NCBI GenBank assembly: GCA_009841145.1
Contig: VXMJ01000101.1
Span: forward strand, 1-44,564
Direction of reading: 5' to 3'
DNA: 44,564 nucleotides
DNA from: Caldilineaceae bacterium SB0661_bin_34
Lineage (GTDB): Bacteria > Chloroflexota > Anaerolineae > Caldilineales > Caldilineaceae
Part shown: positions 34,112 through 41,180 of the stretch, piece by piece
Layout: every line of letters begins with the position of its first letter
How positions within the stretch are numbered: the stretch's first letter is position 1
Translations under genes and position numbers: made by a program
Notes under the pieces: model-generated
Seen by the model: only the letters and a program-made list of their open reading frames with translations
The model's database searches: none
What the model was told of the DNA's origin: nothing

Positions 34112-34134
34112 CCCGGCCACAACTGAACAGTTGC

Positions 34135-34239
34135 CTCATCCAGAGAAGTGGAGGGAATCGGCCCTGTGAAGCTTCGGCAACCCGTCCGCCACCGCCGGGC
34201 AGGGTGCTAATTCCGACAGAATTCGTTCTGGGAGATGAG
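34135..34239 (+). promoter_or_regulatory. SAM-I (S-box) riboswitch
   Basis: P1 is formed by CTCATC (34135-34140) and GATGAG (34234-34239). The core carries GGAGGGA, GGCCC, TGTGAAGC, CGGCAACC and GGTGCTAATTCC in the canonical order. P4 is the CAGAA-TTCG-TTCTG hairpin with a UUCG loop. It binds S-adenosylmethionine in the leader of metX. When SAM is bound P1 forms; when it is free, the 3' side of P1 is released to pair downstream (see the terminator). All conserved blocks of the S-box family are readable. Confidence 0.95.
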
Positions 34240-34267
34240 AGCGCGGTCCGTCCGGGACCCTCTTCAT

Positions 34268-34291
34268 CCCCCTTCCCACAGGGGGTTTTTT
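34268..34291 (+). terminator. SAM-responsive terminator; 3' arm also serves as metX Shine-Dalgarno
   Basis: CCCCC (34268-34272) pairs with GGGGG (34281-34285) and six T follow (34286-34291), ending one base before the metX ATG (34293). The alternative fold pairs GGGAGATGAGAG (34230-34241, 3' side of P1) with CCTCTTCATCCCCC (34259-34272) around an inner GGTCC/GGACC stem, which prevents the terminator. GGGGG is 7 bases before the ATG, so the terminator also hides the ribosome site. Confidence 0.88.
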
Positions 34292-34292
34292 G

Positions 34293-35486
34293 ATGCCAGC
34301 AACCGTAGCCCAGCCACCGCCTGCCGTTGCGCTCAATGGCAGATACCAGGGCGAGATCCAGGCCGAGGACCGGTTCCTGAGGTTCGGTCCCTTCCGATTC
34401 GCCTGCGGCGAGGAGTTGCCCGAGGTCGTCCTGGCCTACCAAACCTACGGCGAACTGAATGCGGACCGCAGCAACGCGATCCTGATTTGCCACGCGCTGA
34501 GTGGCAACCAGCATGCGGCCGGGCGCATGCCCGACCGTCCCACATCGCGGCCCTGGTGGGACGACTGTATCGGCCCTGGCAAGGCCTTCGACACCAACCG
34601 CTTCTTCGTGATTTGCAGCAACGTCCTGGGCAGTTGCTCCGGCTCCTCCGGACCGGCCGAGATCAATCCCGCCACGGGCCGGCACTGGGCCCTCGACTTC
34701 CCCATCGTGACCATTGCCGACATGGTGGAGGCGCAGGTCCGCCTGATCGACCATCTGGAAATCGAGAAGCTGCTCAGCGTGGCCGGCGGTTCCATGGGCG
34801 GCATGCAGGTCCTGCAGTGGGCCTCCCACCATCCCGACCGCTTGGTGAGCGCCATGCCGATTGCCACCACGGCGCGCCACAGCCCGATGCAGATTGCCTT
34901 CGATGCCGTCGGGCGTGAGGCAATTACGCGCGATCCGTACTGGCACGGCGGCGACTACTACGACCGGGCCGACAAGCCGGATGCCGGCCTGGCCGTGGCG
35001 CGCATGGTGGGCCATATCACCTATCTGTCCGAACAGTCCATGCACGAAAAGCAGTTCGGCGACCGGCTGAATCGGGACACCGACTCCGGCCGCACCGGCC
35101 GCGACTTCCTGAAACCAGAGTTCCAGGTGGAGAGCTACCTCCTGTACAACGGCCAGAAGTTTCCGGAACGCTTTGACGCCAACGCCTACCTTTATGTCAC
35201 CAAGGCCATGGACGATTTCGATCTGACCCAGGCCACGGGCCGGCTGGCAGACGCCTTCCGCCAGGCGGTCGACGTCAAATTTCTGGTGCTGAGCTTTACC
35301 AGCGATTGGCTTTACCCCAGCCACCAGAGCCGCGACCTGGTGCGGGCCCTGAACGCCCTGGGCATCACCGTCACCTATGTCGACATCGACAGCGTCTGGG
35401 GTCACGATGCCTTCCTCCTGGAGCCGGACAGGATGACCCGAATCCTGACCAACTACCTCAACGGGTTGGCCGCGGGCCAGGCCTAA
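34293..35486 (+). CDS. metX: Homoserine O-acyltransferase MetX
   Basis: The 397-residue alpha/beta-hydrolase-fold enzyme shows EVVLAYQTYGELNADRSNAILICHALSG (as adjacent segments). The nucleophile Ser167 is in AGGSMGGMQ, and the acid and His come near the end (WGHDAFLLE). It acylates homoserine for methionine synthesis. Acetyl- versus succinyl-transfer cannot be decided safely from motifs, though acetyl is the default for this family. It is the first gene behind a SAM-I riboswitch, which confirms a methionine role. The ATG follows immediately on the terminator T-run. metW follows after 12 bp. Confidence 0.95.
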   Translation: MPATVAQPPPAVALNGRYQGEIQAEDRFLRFGPFRFACGEELPEVVLAYQTYGELNADRSNAILICHALSGNQHAAGRMPDRPTSRPWWDDCIGPGKAFDTNRFFVICSNVLGSCSGSSGPAEINPATGRHWALDFPIVTIADMVEAQVRLIDHLEIEKLLSVAGGSMGGMQVLQWASHHPDRLVSAMPIATTARHSPMQIAFDAVGREAITRDPYWHGGDYYDRADKPDAGLAVARMVGHITYLSEQSMHEKQFGDRLNRDTDSGRTGRDFLKPEFQVESYLLYNGQKFPERFDANAYLYVTKAMDDFDLTQATGRLADAFRQAVDVKFLVLSFTSDWLYPSHQSRDLVRALNALGITVTYVDIDSVWGHDAFLLEPDRMTRILTNYLNGLAAGQA

Positions 35487-35498
35487 ACTGCCCTTCGC

Positions 35499-36110
35499 AT
35501 GCACAACGTACAGGCCCGGCCCGACCTGACGGCCATCGCCGAACTGGTGACCGAGGGAAGCCGAGTGCTCGACCTGGGCTGCGGCACGGGCGATTTGCTG
35601 GCCTACCTGATTGAGGCCAAGTCCGTCCGGGGAACCGGCATCGAACTGCACGAGGAGGCCGTGATGGACTGCGTCGGCAAGGGCCTGACCGTGGTCCAGG
35701 GCAACCTCAACGACGGCCTGGAGGACTATCCGGACCAGTCCGTGGACTACGTGATCCTGAGCCAGACCCTGCACTACCTCAATCGGCCGGTCCGGGTCCT
35801 GCAGGAGATGATGCGGGTGGGGCGACAGGTGGTTGTCAGCCTGCCCAACTGGGGCCATTGGCGAGCCCGGCTTGACCTGGTGTTGAAGGGCCGCATGCCG
35901 GAAGCCCCCATTCTTCCCGAGCCTTGGCACGGGGCTCGACGCTGGCAGGCGATTACCATCGCAGACTTCCTGGAGTTCTGCCTGATTGAACGAATCCAGG
36001 TGGTCGACTCGGTTTTCCTGGCCGGGCCGCGGGCGGTGAAGAATCCCGCAACGGCCAAGTGGCGAGCCACCACCGGCGTCTTTGTGTTGCAAGCGCCGCA
36101 CACCCGTTGA
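35499..36110 (+). CDS. metW: MetW, methionine-biosynthesis methyltransferase-like protein
   Basis: The 203-residue class I SAM-dependent methyltransferase fold has VLDLGCGTGDLLAYL (motif I), GIELHEEAV, then DYVILSQTLHYLNRP, and SLPNWGHWRARLDL. LPNWGHW is characteristic of MetW. metX and metW are commonly adjacent, and MetW is thought to support or activate MetX. The spacing to metX is 12 bp and to lysC 42 bp, in line with one transcript. Confidence 0.92.
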   Translation: MHNVQARPDLTAIAELVTEGSRVLDLGCGTGDLLAYLIEAKSVRGTGIELHEEAVMDCVGKGLTVVQGNLNDGLEDYPDQSVDYVILSQTLHYLNRPVRVLQEMMRVGRQVVVSLPNWGHWRARLDLVLKGRMPEAPILPEPWHGARRWQAITIADFLEFCLIERIQVVDSVFLAGPRAVKNPATAKWRATTGVFVLQAPHTR

Positions 36111-36152: not shown

Positions 36153-37577
36153 ATGATTGTGATGAAATTCGGCGGCACGTCCGTCGGCAGTGTGGAGGCC
36201 CTGCGACAGGTGGCCTCCATCGTGGGCAGGGAACTGGACGCCCAGGAACCGCGCCCGGGTGTGGTGGTGGTCACCAGCGCCATGAGCGGCGTGACGGATT
36301 TGCTGTCCAACGCGGCCCAGGCCGCGGCCCACACCGACCACGACCAGACCGAAGCCACCTGCAACCTTCTGCGCACCCAACATGCGGAGGTGACGGAAGT
36401 ACTCGTCGACGATGCCGACGCGCGCTGGCGTCTCACCGAGGATCTGGAGGAAACCCTCCGCCAGTTGCGGAGGGTCCTGGACAGCATTGCCGTGCTGGGC
36501 GAGCTGACGCCCCGCGGCAACGACTGGATCTGCGGCACGGGTGAACAGGTGATGGCCCCGCTGCTGACCGAGGTGCTGAAGTCCGCCGGCATTTCGGCAG
36601 TGCACGCCAACGCCCGTTCCCTCATTGTGACCGACGACAACTTCGGCGCGGCGGAACCCTTGGTCAGCGAGACCGAATCACGCTGCCAAACACAGTTGAC
36701 ACCCCTGTTGGCACAGGGCAGGGCAGTGGTCACCAGCGGCTTCATCGGCTCCACGTTTGACGGGCTCCACACGACGCTGGGCCGGGGCGGGTCGGACTAC
36801 TCGGCAGCCATTCTGGGAGCGGCCCTGGATGCCGACGAAATCCAAATCTGGACCGATGTCAGCGGAGTCAAGACCGCTGATCCCAAGGTGGTGCCGGACG
36901 CGCGCTCGCTGCGTGAAATCACGTTTCCGGAGATTGCGGAACTGGCCTACTACGGTGCCCGCGTAATCCATCCCAAGACCGTGCGGCCCGCCATCCGCAA
37001 GGGCATCGGACTGCGGGTTCTCAATACGTTCGAGCCGGACCATGTCGGCACCCGGGTCGTTGCAGACGAACACCGTGCCAAACAGGCCGGGATCAAGGCG
37101 ATTTCGGCCATCCGGGACATGAACATGATCATGATCGAAGGGCGCGGCATGATCGGCGTGCCGGGCATCGCGGCCCGGGCCTTCCGCGCCGTCTCGGACG
37201 TGAACGCCAACGTGCTCATGATCAGCCAAAGTTCCAGCGAGCAGAGCATCTGCTTCGTGGTTCCGGACGATTCGGCCGACATGGTGATCAACGCCCTGCG
37301 CCGGGAGTTCTCAATGGAGCTGGACCGCGGCTACATCGAACGCATCGACGGTGATCCCGACATCGTCATCGTGGCTGCCGTGGGCCATGCCATCCGCCAT
37401 ACGCCGGGCATTGCGGCCCGGGTCTTCTCGGCCCTGGGCGATGCCCGGATCAACGTCGTGTCCATTGCACAGGGCGCCAGCGACAACATGATCAGCCTAG
37501 TGGTGGTGCGGGATGCCGCCGACGCCGCGGTCAACGCCCTGCACCGAGCCTTCAACCTGGCACGGCCGACCAACTGA
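36153..37577 (+). CDS. lysC: Aspartokinase with C-terminal ACT domains
   Basis: The 474-residue protein begins with the aspartokinase signature MKFGGTSVG. The kinase domain continues with VTSGFIGSTFDG, TTLGRGGSDYSAAILGAAL and the WTDVSGV-type loop (IWTDVSGVKTADPKVV). From about residue 315 two ACT modules occur (ISAIRDMNMIMIEGRGMIG, and IVAAVGHAIRHTPGIAARVFSALGDARINV as adjacent pieces), which should bind an end-product amino acid such as lysine or threonine. The kinase commits aspartate to the Asp-family pathway. Its place behind metXW puts it under SAM control. Confidence 0.93.
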   Translation: MIVMKFGGTSVGSVEALRQVASIVGRELDAQEPRPGVVVVTSAMSGVTDLLSNAAQAAAHTDHDQTEATCNLLRTQHAEVTEVLVDDADARWRLTEDLEETLRQLRRVLDSIAVLGELTPRGNDWICGTGEQVMAPLLTEVLKSAGISAVHANARSLIVTDDNFGAAEPLVSETESRCQTQLTPLLAQGRAVVTSGFIGSTFDGLHTTLGRGGSDYSAAILGAALDADEIQIWTDVSGVKTADPKVVPDARSLREITFPEIAELAYYGARVIHPKTVRPAIRKGIGLRVLNTFEPDHVGTRVVADEHRAKQAGIKAISAIRDMNMIMIEGRGMIGVPGIAARAFRAVSDVNANVLMISQSSSEQSICFVVPDDSADMVINALRREFSMELDRGYIERIDGDPDIVIVAAVGHAIRHTPGIAARVFSALGDARINVVSIAQGASDNMISLVVVRDAADAAVNALHRAFNLARPTN

Positions 37578-37727: not shown

Positions 37728-38831
37728 ATGGTTGATGTTCCCGTCGTTGTGCTGGGGTTGGGTAGCGTTGGTCGTTCTTTCGTCTCCCAGATTCTGAGCC
37801 AACGCGCCTTTCACGATCGCCACTACGGCCTGCGCCTGTCCATCCGCGCCGTCGGCGACAGCCAAGGACTGGTTTCCACCGGGGACGGTGGCTTTCCGGA
37901 CACCGAGCTGGCGGCCATCCTGAAGCACAAGGCCGCCGGCCGGCCGTTGACCGAATGGGCCGGCGGCAGTGCCTGTAATTCGCCCTTGGCGGCGGCACAA
38001 CAGGGGACCGCCCCGGGATCCGTGGTGGTGGACTGTTCGGCGGCCGACGCGACGGCCGACGCCCTGCAGTGGGCATTGGAGGCGGGCCACCGCATTGTCC
38101 TGGCCAACAAGAAACCACTGACCCAGGACCTGACCGTCTGGGACCGGTTGACCCACACGCCCAAAGGAACCTGGAATCTGGGACGCAGCCGATGGGAGAC
38201 CACCGTGGGTTCGGGACTGCCGGTTGTGGCCACCTTGCACCGCCTGGTTGCCAGCGGAGATTCCGTGACCTCGGTGGAGGGGGCCCTCTCCGGCACTCTC
38301 GGTTATGTCATGACCGGGCTGCAGGAAGGCAAGGCCTTCAGCGAAGTCGTGACCGAGGCCAAGGCATCGGGCTACACCGAACCGGACCCCAGGGACGACC
38401 TGGGAGGTGTGGATGTGGCCCGCAAGGCCCTGATCCTGGCGCGCGGCATGGGCCTGGGCCTTTCGCTGGCGGATGTCGAGATTGAAAGCCTGTATCCCGA
38501 GGAGGTTGCGGACTTGACCGTGGACGAGTTCATGAAGGCGTTGCCTACCCTGAACCAAGGCTTCCAGAGCCACTGCGCAGCCGCGGCCCGGCGGAATGCC
38601 TGCCTGCGCTATGTGGCCTCGGTGTCGGCGGATGCCGTGCGGGTCGGCCCGCAGGAAGTGCCGTTGGACAGTCCTTTGGGACAGCTTCAGGGCACGGACA
38701 ACCTGGTCCAGTTTCGCAGCGGCTGGTACAACCCCCAGCCCCTGGTCCTCCAGGGACGGGGGGCCGGGGTGGACGCCACTGCAGCCGGCGTTCTGAGCGA
38801 TGTTGTCGACTTGGCCTTCGCCCATCCATGA
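37728..38831 (+). CDS. hom: Homoserine dehydrogenase
   Basis: The 367-residue protein has the NAD(P)-binding start VVVLGLGSVGRSFV. The central homoserine dehydrogenase blocks are VLANKKPLTQDL, then SGLPVVATLHRLVASGD, EGALSGTLGYVM and EPDPRDDLGGVDVARKALILAR. No C-terminal ACT domain follows, so feedback by threonine is not expected from this chain. It converts aspartate semialdehyde to homoserine. The ATGA at 38828-38831 joins its stop to the first possible asd start. Confidence 0.92.
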   Translation: MVDVPVVVLGLGSVGRSFVSQILSQRAFHDRHYGLRLSIRAVGDSQGLVSTGDGGFPDTELAAILKHKAAGRPLTEWAGGSACNSPLAAAQQGTAPGSVVVDCSAADATADALQWALEAGHRIVLANKKPLTQDLTVWDRLTHTPKGTWNLGRSRWETTVGSGLPVVATLHRLVASGDSVTSVEGALSGTLGYVMTGLQEGKAFSEVVTEAKASGYTEPDPRDDLGGVDVARKALILARGMGLGLSLADVEIESLYPEEVADLTVDEFMKALPTLNQGFQSHCAAAARRNACLRYVASVSADAVRVGPQEVPLDSPLGQLQGTDNLVQFRSGWYNPQPLVLQGRGAGVDATAAGVLSDVVDLAFAHP

Positions 38832-39985
38832 TCGTTCCCAATCGATCGGAGTTAGACCTGTTGCAAGCAATGAACGAGCGGATTAACGTAGGTGTCCTGG
38901 GCGCCACCGGCGCTGTCGGGCAGCGGTTCGTGTCGCTGCTGGACAAGCATCCCTGGTTCCGTCTGACCGCGGTCTGTGCCTCGGAGCGCAGCGCGGGCAA
39001 ACCGTACGCCGAAGCCTGTACCTGGATACTGCGCGATCCGATGCCGGAGGCCGTCCGCGGCATGGTGGTGCAGCCGGTCGAACCCGGCATCGAATGCACA
39101 ATCGTGTTCAGCGGCCTGCCGACCGACCAGGCCCGCACGGCCGAGAGGGCCTTCGCCCAGGCGGGTTACGGCGTCTACAGCAATGCCGGTGCCTACCGCT
39201 ATGCGGACGATGTACCCCTGCTCATCCCCGAAGTCAACCCGGACCACATCGGCCTGATCCCTATCCAGCAGCGGCAGCGCGGCTGGAGCGGCTACATCGT
39301 CACCAACGCCAACTGCACCACCACCCACTTGGTCTCCGCGTTGCACCCCCTGCACGAACGCTTCGGCATCTCCCGCTTGTTCGTCTGCACCATGCAGGCC
39401 ATATCCGGAGCGGGTTACCCCGGGGTCCCCAGCATGGACATCCTGGACAACATCGTGCCGTACATTGCCGACGAGGAAACCAAGGTCGAGGAAAAGGAAC
39501 CGCACAAGCTGCTGGGACACTTCGACGGCGAGCGGATCATCCCCCCGGACTTTCGGATTTCGGCGCATTGCAACCGCGTGGCCACGCGCAACGGCCATCT
39601 GGAGGCCATCAGCGTGGAATTCGACATCAAGCCCACCGCCGAGGAAATCCTGGAGACCTGGCGGGACTACCATCCGCTTCCACAGCAGTTGCGGCTGCCG
39701 TCGGCGCCGGACAAAGCCATCATCTATCGGGAGGCCGAGGACCGCCCCCAGCCGCGGCTGGATCGGCTGGCGGGATCCGTACCGGGCATGGCCACGGTGA
39801 CCGGACGTCTGCGCCCCGATCCGCTGTTCGACTTCAAGTTCCTGACCCTGGGCCACAACACCATCCGCGGCGCGGCGGGTGGCAGCCTGCTCAACGCCGA
39901 GTTGATGCACTCGTGGCACCCGGACGCCGACTCCCTGGTAGCCGCCAACGGCGCGGTTCCGTGCGCTGTCCCCACATCCACATAG
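38828..39985 (+). CDS. asd: Aspartate-semialdehyde dehydrogenase
   Basis: The protein has 385 residues from the ATGA overlap, or 371 from ATG 38870 just before NVGVLGATGAVGQRF. The catalytic Cys is in TNANCTTTHL and the substrate-binding His and Arg in AHCNRVATRNGH. The loop spacing and length match the fungal/archaeal-type branch rather than the E. coli type. It reduces aspartyl phosphate to the semialdehyde. Together with lysC and hom it completes aspartate to homoserine in one block. Confidence 0.93.
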   Translation: MIVPNRSELDLLQAMNERINVGVLGATGAVGQRFVSLLDKHPWFRLTAVCASERSAGKPYAEACTWILRDPMPEAVRGMVVQPVEPGIECTIVFSGLPTDQARTAERAFAQAGYGVYSNAGAYRYADDVPLLIPEVNPDHIGLIPIQQRQRGWSGYIVTNANCTTTHLVSALHPLHERFGISRLFVCTMQAISGAGYPGVPSMDILDNIVPYIADEETKVEEKEPHKLLGHFDGERIIPPDFRISAHCNRVATRNGHLEAISVEFDIKPTAEEILETWRDYHPLPQQLRLPSAPDKAIIYREAEDRPQPRLDRLAGSVPGMATVTGRLRPDPLFDFKFLTLGHNTIRGAAGGSLLNAELMHSWHPDADSLVAANGAVPCAVPTST

Positions 39986-40004: not shown

Positions 40005-41180
40005 TTGACCACCTCAATCACCACACCGGACTACGCTGTCCACGGCTTGGTCAGTCTTGCCGAATTCCTGGAGGACCGGGTCGTCTTCCGCGATTTGCAG
40101 CCGGTTGACCGCCGCTACCAGGGATTTATCCAGTGCGCCCGCGACTTCGCCTTGGATCCGAGCGACATCCCGCGCAAGACCGACCCGGACTACAACAAGG
40201 TTGCGGTCTGGATCGTGGACCACATGCAGGAGCAGCGCTCCGACACCGAAATCCAGGAGCTTCTGTTCGTCGGCGACACACGCGGTTCCGATCTGGTCGC
40301 GTTTGAAAAGATGATCACCTATGCCGACTGGAAAGGTTCCTGTTTCATCGGCGACGAGGTGGTGCACGAAGAGCCCGAGCTCAGGTGGGAAATCCATCCC
40401 CTGCTGGTGTCCGCCAACCGCTGGTCGCTATTGGCGGAATGGATCGAGGGTTTGGCCGAGGCGAGGATGGCCATGGACAGCCGCACCGCCGTCATTGTGG
40501 ACATCGACAAGACGGCCATCGGGGCCCAGGGCCGCAACCATCAGGTCATCAATGATGCCCGCGTGATGAGTCTGCGCAAATCCCTGGAAGTCCACATGTC
40601 GGCCAATTTCGACTTCCAGAACTTCCGCCGGGTCTACGACCAGATCAGCCGTCCCGAGTTCCAGGGCCTGACGGTGGACAACGAGGACTACATCATCTAC
40701 ATCTGTTTGATGATCATGGGCGGTGTCACCAACATCAAGGAGATCGGCGATCTGGTAGCCCAACGGATGTCGTTCCTCCATCTGGTGCGCTGGATTTCGA
40801 CCAAGACGGACAAGCCCCTGGTCATGCAGTTGCGACAGCTTCACGACCAGTACCAGATGTGCACGCGGACCGGCGACCGCACGCCGTTCAAGCAGTTTCG
40901 GAGACAGGAGTTCCTGGAAACCACCGGCCGCATGGGCATTCACAGCAGCCCCATGGCGGCCGCCAAGCGGCTCGAAACGGAAATCTGCATCACGCAGGAA
41001 GTCCGCGAGCTGTGCGACTGGCTCAACGAGCGCGGCTGCCTTCTGTTGGCCATGAGCGACAAGCCCAAGGAGGCCTCCATGCCGCACCAGCGCTGGCACA
41101 AGGGCATGCTGCCGGTACATCGTACGCCCACCCATGCGGTGGGCACCAGCATCAGGGAACGGCTGGATGCCCTGAACTGA
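40005..41180 (+). CDS. HAD-like hydrolase with apparently circularly permuted motif order
   Basis: The 391-residue frame starts at TTG 40005, behind an AAGGAC site. No exact family is recognised. Motifs of haloacid-dehalogenase phosphatases are readable in changed order. A motif III-like Lys (RKTDPDYNK, about residue 58) and motif IV (LLFVGDTRGSD, Asp91 and Asp96) come first. Motif I (AVIVDIDKTAIG, Asp166/Asp168) follows, then about 180 residues that could be a cap, and finally motif II (LLLAMSDKP, Ser351). The usual order is I-cap-II-III-IV. It sits 19 bp after asd in the same strand. A phosphatase role linked to amino-acid metabolism is inference. Confidence 0.72.
   Translation: MTTSITTPDYAVHGLVSLAEFLEDRVVFRDLQPVDRRYQGFIQCARDFALDPSDIPRKTDPDYNKVAVWIVDHMQEQRSDTEIQELLFVGDTRGSDLVAFEKMITYADWKGSCFIGDEVVHEEPELRWEIHPLLVSANRWSLLAEWIEGLAEARMAMDSRTAVIVDIDKTAIGAQGRNHQVINDARVMSLRKSLEVHMSANFDFQNFRRVYDQISRPEFQGLTVDNEDYIIYICLMIMGGVTNIKEIGDLVAQRMSFLHLVRWISTKTDKPLVMQLRQLHDQYQMCTRTGDRTPFKQFRRQEFLETTGRMGIHSSPMAAAKRLETEICITQEVRELCDWLNERGCLLLAMSDKPKEASMPHQRWHKGMLPVHRTPTHAVGTSIRERLDALN

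Follow-up and report, generated by a model that had tools for sequence, protein, structure and literature searches.

Does a conserved, unannotated gene beside the aspartate-pathway genes of a Caldilineaceae bacterium encode a HAD-type enzyme whose two halves have exchanged places, and if so, which reaction might it catalyze? The original prediction, made from the sequence of one locus, proposed a circularly permuted HAD phosphatase in which motifs III and IV precede motifs I and II. HAD enzymes are among the largest phosphoryl-transfer superfamilies, and no natural circular permutant was described in the literature that we searched. A conserved one would show that the order of the catalytic halves is not a constraint on this active site. 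Separately, homoserine kinase is one of the commonest gaps in predicted amino acid pathways (low confidence in 20% of 148 diverse prokaryotes [PMC7311316]), and novel homoserine kinases appear to remain undiscovered (PMC5764234). The gene family described here is a candidate for filling this gap in one phylum.

A conserved gene directly downstream of asd

The window analyzed here is a 44,564-nucleotide stretch of DNA from Caldilineaceae bacterium SB0661_bin_34 (GCA_009841145.1, contig VXMJ01000101.1, positions 1 to 44,564). The gene of interest encodes 391 residues from a TTG codon, which is preceded by an AAGGA motif at a distance of 7 nt, and lies 19 bp after asd and 264 bp before ftsH. The relevant features of the window are as follows.

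34133..34241 (+), SAM riboswitch upstream of metX (Rfam RF00162, 75.7 bits), the likely control of this gene block
34290..35486 (+), metX, homoserine O-acyltransferase
35499..36110 (+), metW
36153..37577 (+), lysC, aspartate kinase
37728..38831 (+), hom, homoserine dehydrogenase
38828..39985 (+), asd, aspartate-semialdehyde dehydrogenase (TIGR00978 type), directly upstream
40005..41180 (+), the predicted permuted HAD gene (391 aa, TTG start)
40005..40454 (+), N-terminal module, residues 1-150: strand S3 with R29, motif III, S4 with motif IV, and S5 (strand labels inferred), corresponding to the C-terminal half of an ordinary HAD
40173..40178 (+), R57-K58, with the motif III lysine
40272..40292 (+), motif IV GDTRGSD, residues 90-96
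40458..41177 (+), C-terminal module, residues 152-391: S1, helical cap, and S2, corresponding to the N-terminal half of a C1-capped HAD
40500..40514 (+), motif I DIDKT, residues 166-170
40515..40994 (+), all-helical cap, about residues 171-330, with conserved GRN, TxDNQD, and GDPTPFKxFR blocks
41055..41066 (+), motif II SDKP, residues 351-354

Pfam, NCBIfam, and PDB sequence searches returned no match for the protein, and the nearest named records were Caldilineaceae/Caldilineales metagenome assemblies. The gene is nevertheless real and conserved. It was found in 49 of 61 related genomes, including 46 of 46 genomes of its own family by profile, where it occurs in one copy (in two pieces in two of the genomes, G008 and G034). 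In a sample of 301 genomes drawn evenly from the phylum, 23 carried a full-length match; a further 47-residue hit (genome G209) was left out. Full-length relatives without internal stops occur in nearly all carriers, whereas no phage or plasmid relatives were found.

HAD motifs are conserved in a permuted order

To test whether the motifs could be due to chance, we aligned 53 homologues (27-97% identity to the window protein). Only 25 of 391 positions were invariant, and these included K58, G90, D96, D166, D168, K169, D352, and P354. D91 was kept in 52 of 53 sequences, T170 in 52 of 53 (one S), and S351 in 52 of 53 (one T). The motif order was III-IV-I-II in all 53 sequences, in contrast to the order I-II-III-IV of collinear HAD families such as Pfam PF00702, and both spacings of the motif IV pattern GDx3-4D occur. 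Since the residues had been chosen from one sequence, their conservation is an independent confirmation. The original prediction also placed the cut between motifs II and III correctly. Small corrections are that D168 is the second motif I aspartate, that motif II is S351, and that motif III is the invariant K58. A second, diverged copy (28% identity; L045:2995-4161, minus strand, in genome G043) has GNRQSRD instead of GD in motif IV (D91N) and SDRP instead of SDKP, perhaps representing an altered or inactive paralogue.

At the sequence level, PF00702 was matched in 6 of 53 homologues with a best E value of 7.7e-4, but not by the window protein, and there was no significant match to any HAD family. 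The family profile touched one HAD structure (2hcf) in three blocks whose order is rearranged as expected (156-183 to 4-31, 318-348 to 85-115, and 69-117 to 157-205); however, each block was weak. De-permuting the alignment did not raise the HMMER scores against PDB and Pfam over those of the native order. A cut-point scan with hhalign against small HAD, SerB, and ThrH profiles gave matches of single motif blocks (E 0.002-0.04 per comparison), but no cut point stood out, because the local scores rest on one block. A search of the host genome with the de-permuted profile for a nonpermuted close relative found only this gene, as two pieces.

The predicted fold is consistent with a circular permutation

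AlphaFold2 with the 53-row alignment gave a confident model (pLDDT 92, pTM 0.90). The strands fall where a permuted HAD needs them: 25-29 (only partly assigned as strand), 85-90 ending in motif IV, 110-116, 161-165 ending in motif I, and 346-350 ending in motif II, while helices fill 179-342. K58 precedes helix 63-78 and strand 85-90. A sequential Foldseek search with the whole model listed no HAD, which neither proves nor excludes a relation, and a second structural comparison (VIA) listed only generic Rossmann folds with Z values up to 6.6. A search of BFVD gave no significant match. When residues 152-391 were folded alone (pLDDT 89), the best Foldseek rows were HADs, although none was significant (E 0.8 and above). 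In the second comparison, all of rows 1-20 were HAD proteins or what appear to be designed enzymes built on a HAD scaffold, with 123-164 residues aligned. This contrast is what a circular permutation predicts; however, the Z values were only 4.4-5.3, and a Z under 8 is not proof by itself.

Taken together, a naturally permuted HAD with a large helical C1-type cap and an intact set of catalytic residues is well supported, although active-site geometry was not measured. We infer that strands S3-S4-S5 from the N-terminal half and S1-S2 from the C-terminal half form the usual HAD sheet (order S3-S2-S1-S4-S5 [PMC6957218]). D166 is inferred to be the nucleophile that becomes aspartyl-phosphate and D168 the general acid/base, while S351 and K58 would hold the phosphoryl group and D91, D96, and D166 would bind Mg2+.

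The gene is linked to asd and does not co-occur with thrB

Next, the neighborhood of the gene was compared in 41 loci of at most 19 kb (the window included). asd lies directly upstream on the same strand in 40 of 41 loci, lysC and hom were found in 26 and 23 by clustering, and ftsH lies downstream in 17. In one family (f43), mostly only the pair of asd and this gene remains, while thrC adjoins the block in three families. In the window, the block starts with the SAM riboswitch, so it is probably under SAM control. Long open frames in two loci (L001 and L038) suggested a fusion of asd with this gene; this was rejected, since the upstream stretch is asd read out of frame.

No carrier has the homoserine kinase gene thrB. 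In the phylum sample, ThrB was found in 0 of 23 carriers and 218 of 278 noncarriers (p about 1e-14 without correction for descent). With one genome per family outside the host family, inside the class, it was found in 0 of 13 carrier families and 8 of 12 noncarrier families (Fisher p = 0.0005). Overall, 0 of 79 carriers have it. Threonine synthase (thrC) passed its cutoff in 39 of 39 genomes tested, whereas two other homoserine kinase families (TIGR02535 and TIGR00938) passed theirs in none of 39 genomes. Weak TIGR02535 matches in the host family (162-208 bits, cutoff 446.3) also occur in thrB carriers and were therefore taken as phosphoglycerate-mutase-like enzymes. SerB, used as a control, showed no such exclusion (p = 0.56). 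In two carrier genomes (G052 and G195, 97-99% complete), thrC is present, but ThrB, TIGR00938, TIGR02535, and ThrH were not detected, nor was SerB over cutoff; the absence of ThrH there rests on the SerB profile, which found ThrH-like proteins at 27-52 bits elsewhere, and the shikimate-kinase-like homoserine kinase of Desulfovibrio (PMC5764234) was not included. Five genomes of the same class (G045, G053, G041, G048, and G131) have neither ThrB nor this gene, although threonine synthase is present in those tested (G045, G053, and G131), and show a further unfilled homoserine kinase gap.

A possible role in phosphohomoserine formation

Transfer of phosphate to homoserine, giving O-phosphohomoserine for threonine synthase in place of ThrB, is the best single explanation of the genome evidence. 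This assignment is an inference from genome context and remains tentative. It is likewise possible, but not more than that, that a natural permutant fixed across several lineages of one phylum evolved into a new, unrelated solution for homoserine phosphorylation and replaced ThrB. The host encodes a ThrH over cutoff (L147:1378-2007, minus strand, in contig C49 of the host genome; TIGR02137 and NF010109; 227.3 bits against 223.4, and 250 against 133), as do other Caldilineaceae. ThrH transfers phosphate from phosphoserine to homoserine (PMC1079889), so the host does not strictly need another enzyme. In family f43, proteins scoring 76-99 bits against TIGR00938 (cutoff 255.9; loci L158, L159, and L160) are possible diverged homoserine kinases that may play this part. 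Moreover, HAD enzymes are not known as ATP-dependent homoserine kinases.

The main rival is a permuted HAD phosphatase that hydrolyzes a phosphate ester or acyl phosphate of the aspartate pathway for cleanup or flux control, with ThrH or another enzyme filling the thrB gap. The invariant general acid D168, as in HAD phosphatases, the tight linkage to asd rather than to thrC, and the presence of ThrH in the host and relatives are in line with this reading. However, it does not explain why carriers never have thrB, nor carriers such as G052 and G195 with no detected alternative, and we consider it unlikely, if less so than the other alternatives. The original prediction had suggested a phosphatase for a pathway phosphate or a regulator; the genomic evidence points rather to phosphoryl transfer to homoserine, and nothing supports a regulator. 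The exclusion of thrB could also be a shadow of phylogeny, with asd and this gene traveling as a block in lineages that lost thrB for other reasons: the host family contributes many of the carriers, and four of the 12 noncarrier families also lack thrB. This seems improbable, since the pattern holds at family level within one class and in carriers elsewhere in the phylum.

A phosphoserine phosphatase filling the SerB gap would fit the absence of SerB over cutoff from 26 of 31 carriers. Yet SerB presence does not track the gene, as 5 carriers have SerB and the 8 tested noncarriers do not, and the neighbors belong to the aspartate rather than the serine pathway, making this role very unlikely. 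Equally doubtful is the view that the protein is not a permutation but comprises two incomplete HAD-like domains, or a flavodoxin/CheY-like fold that converged on HAD-like motifs. The sheet order of a permuted HAD equals that of CheY-like folds, HAD and CheY have been described as sharing a Mg2+ site through a nonsequential match (PMC10400377), and the full model aligns to generic Rossmann folds. On the other hand, each half lacks exactly the motifs that the other holds, the lysine precedes S4, as would be expected in HADs, instead of following the last strand as it appears to do in CheY, and the C-terminal half, cap included, matches C1 HADs.

Comparison with known systems

ThrH, a phosphoserine phosphatase/phosphoserine:homoserine phosphotransferase, is an ordinary HAD that works through an aspartyl-phosphate, and phosphohomoserine production is the proposed shared role. 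It has the ordinary motif order and about 205 aa, while the protein described here does not match its profile and has a much larger cap and swapped halves. C1-capped HAD phosphatases and mutases such as CbbY, beta-phosphoglucomutase, and PH1655 share the S1-helical cap-S2 arrangement of the C-terminal half and all catalytic motifs; in the protein described here, motifs III and IV lie N-terminal to motif I instead of C-terminal to motif II. A permuted HAD has the same strand order as CheY-like receiver domains, with acid residues, phospho-acceptor Asp, and Ser/Thr in the same linear order. The GHMP-type homoserine kinase ThrB (TIGR00191) shares only the proposed pathway step, has an unrelated fold, and was never found in the same genome here; no known homoserine kinase family (TIGR00191, TIGR00938, or TIGR02535) matched the window protein over cutoff. 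TIGR02535, the proposed homoserine phosphotransferase of the phosphoglycerate mutase family, is likewise a nonkinase family proposed for the same gap on genome context (PMC7311316), but its fold is unrelated, and complementation of an E. coli thrB strain failed for its Bacteroides member, so that assignment is also open.
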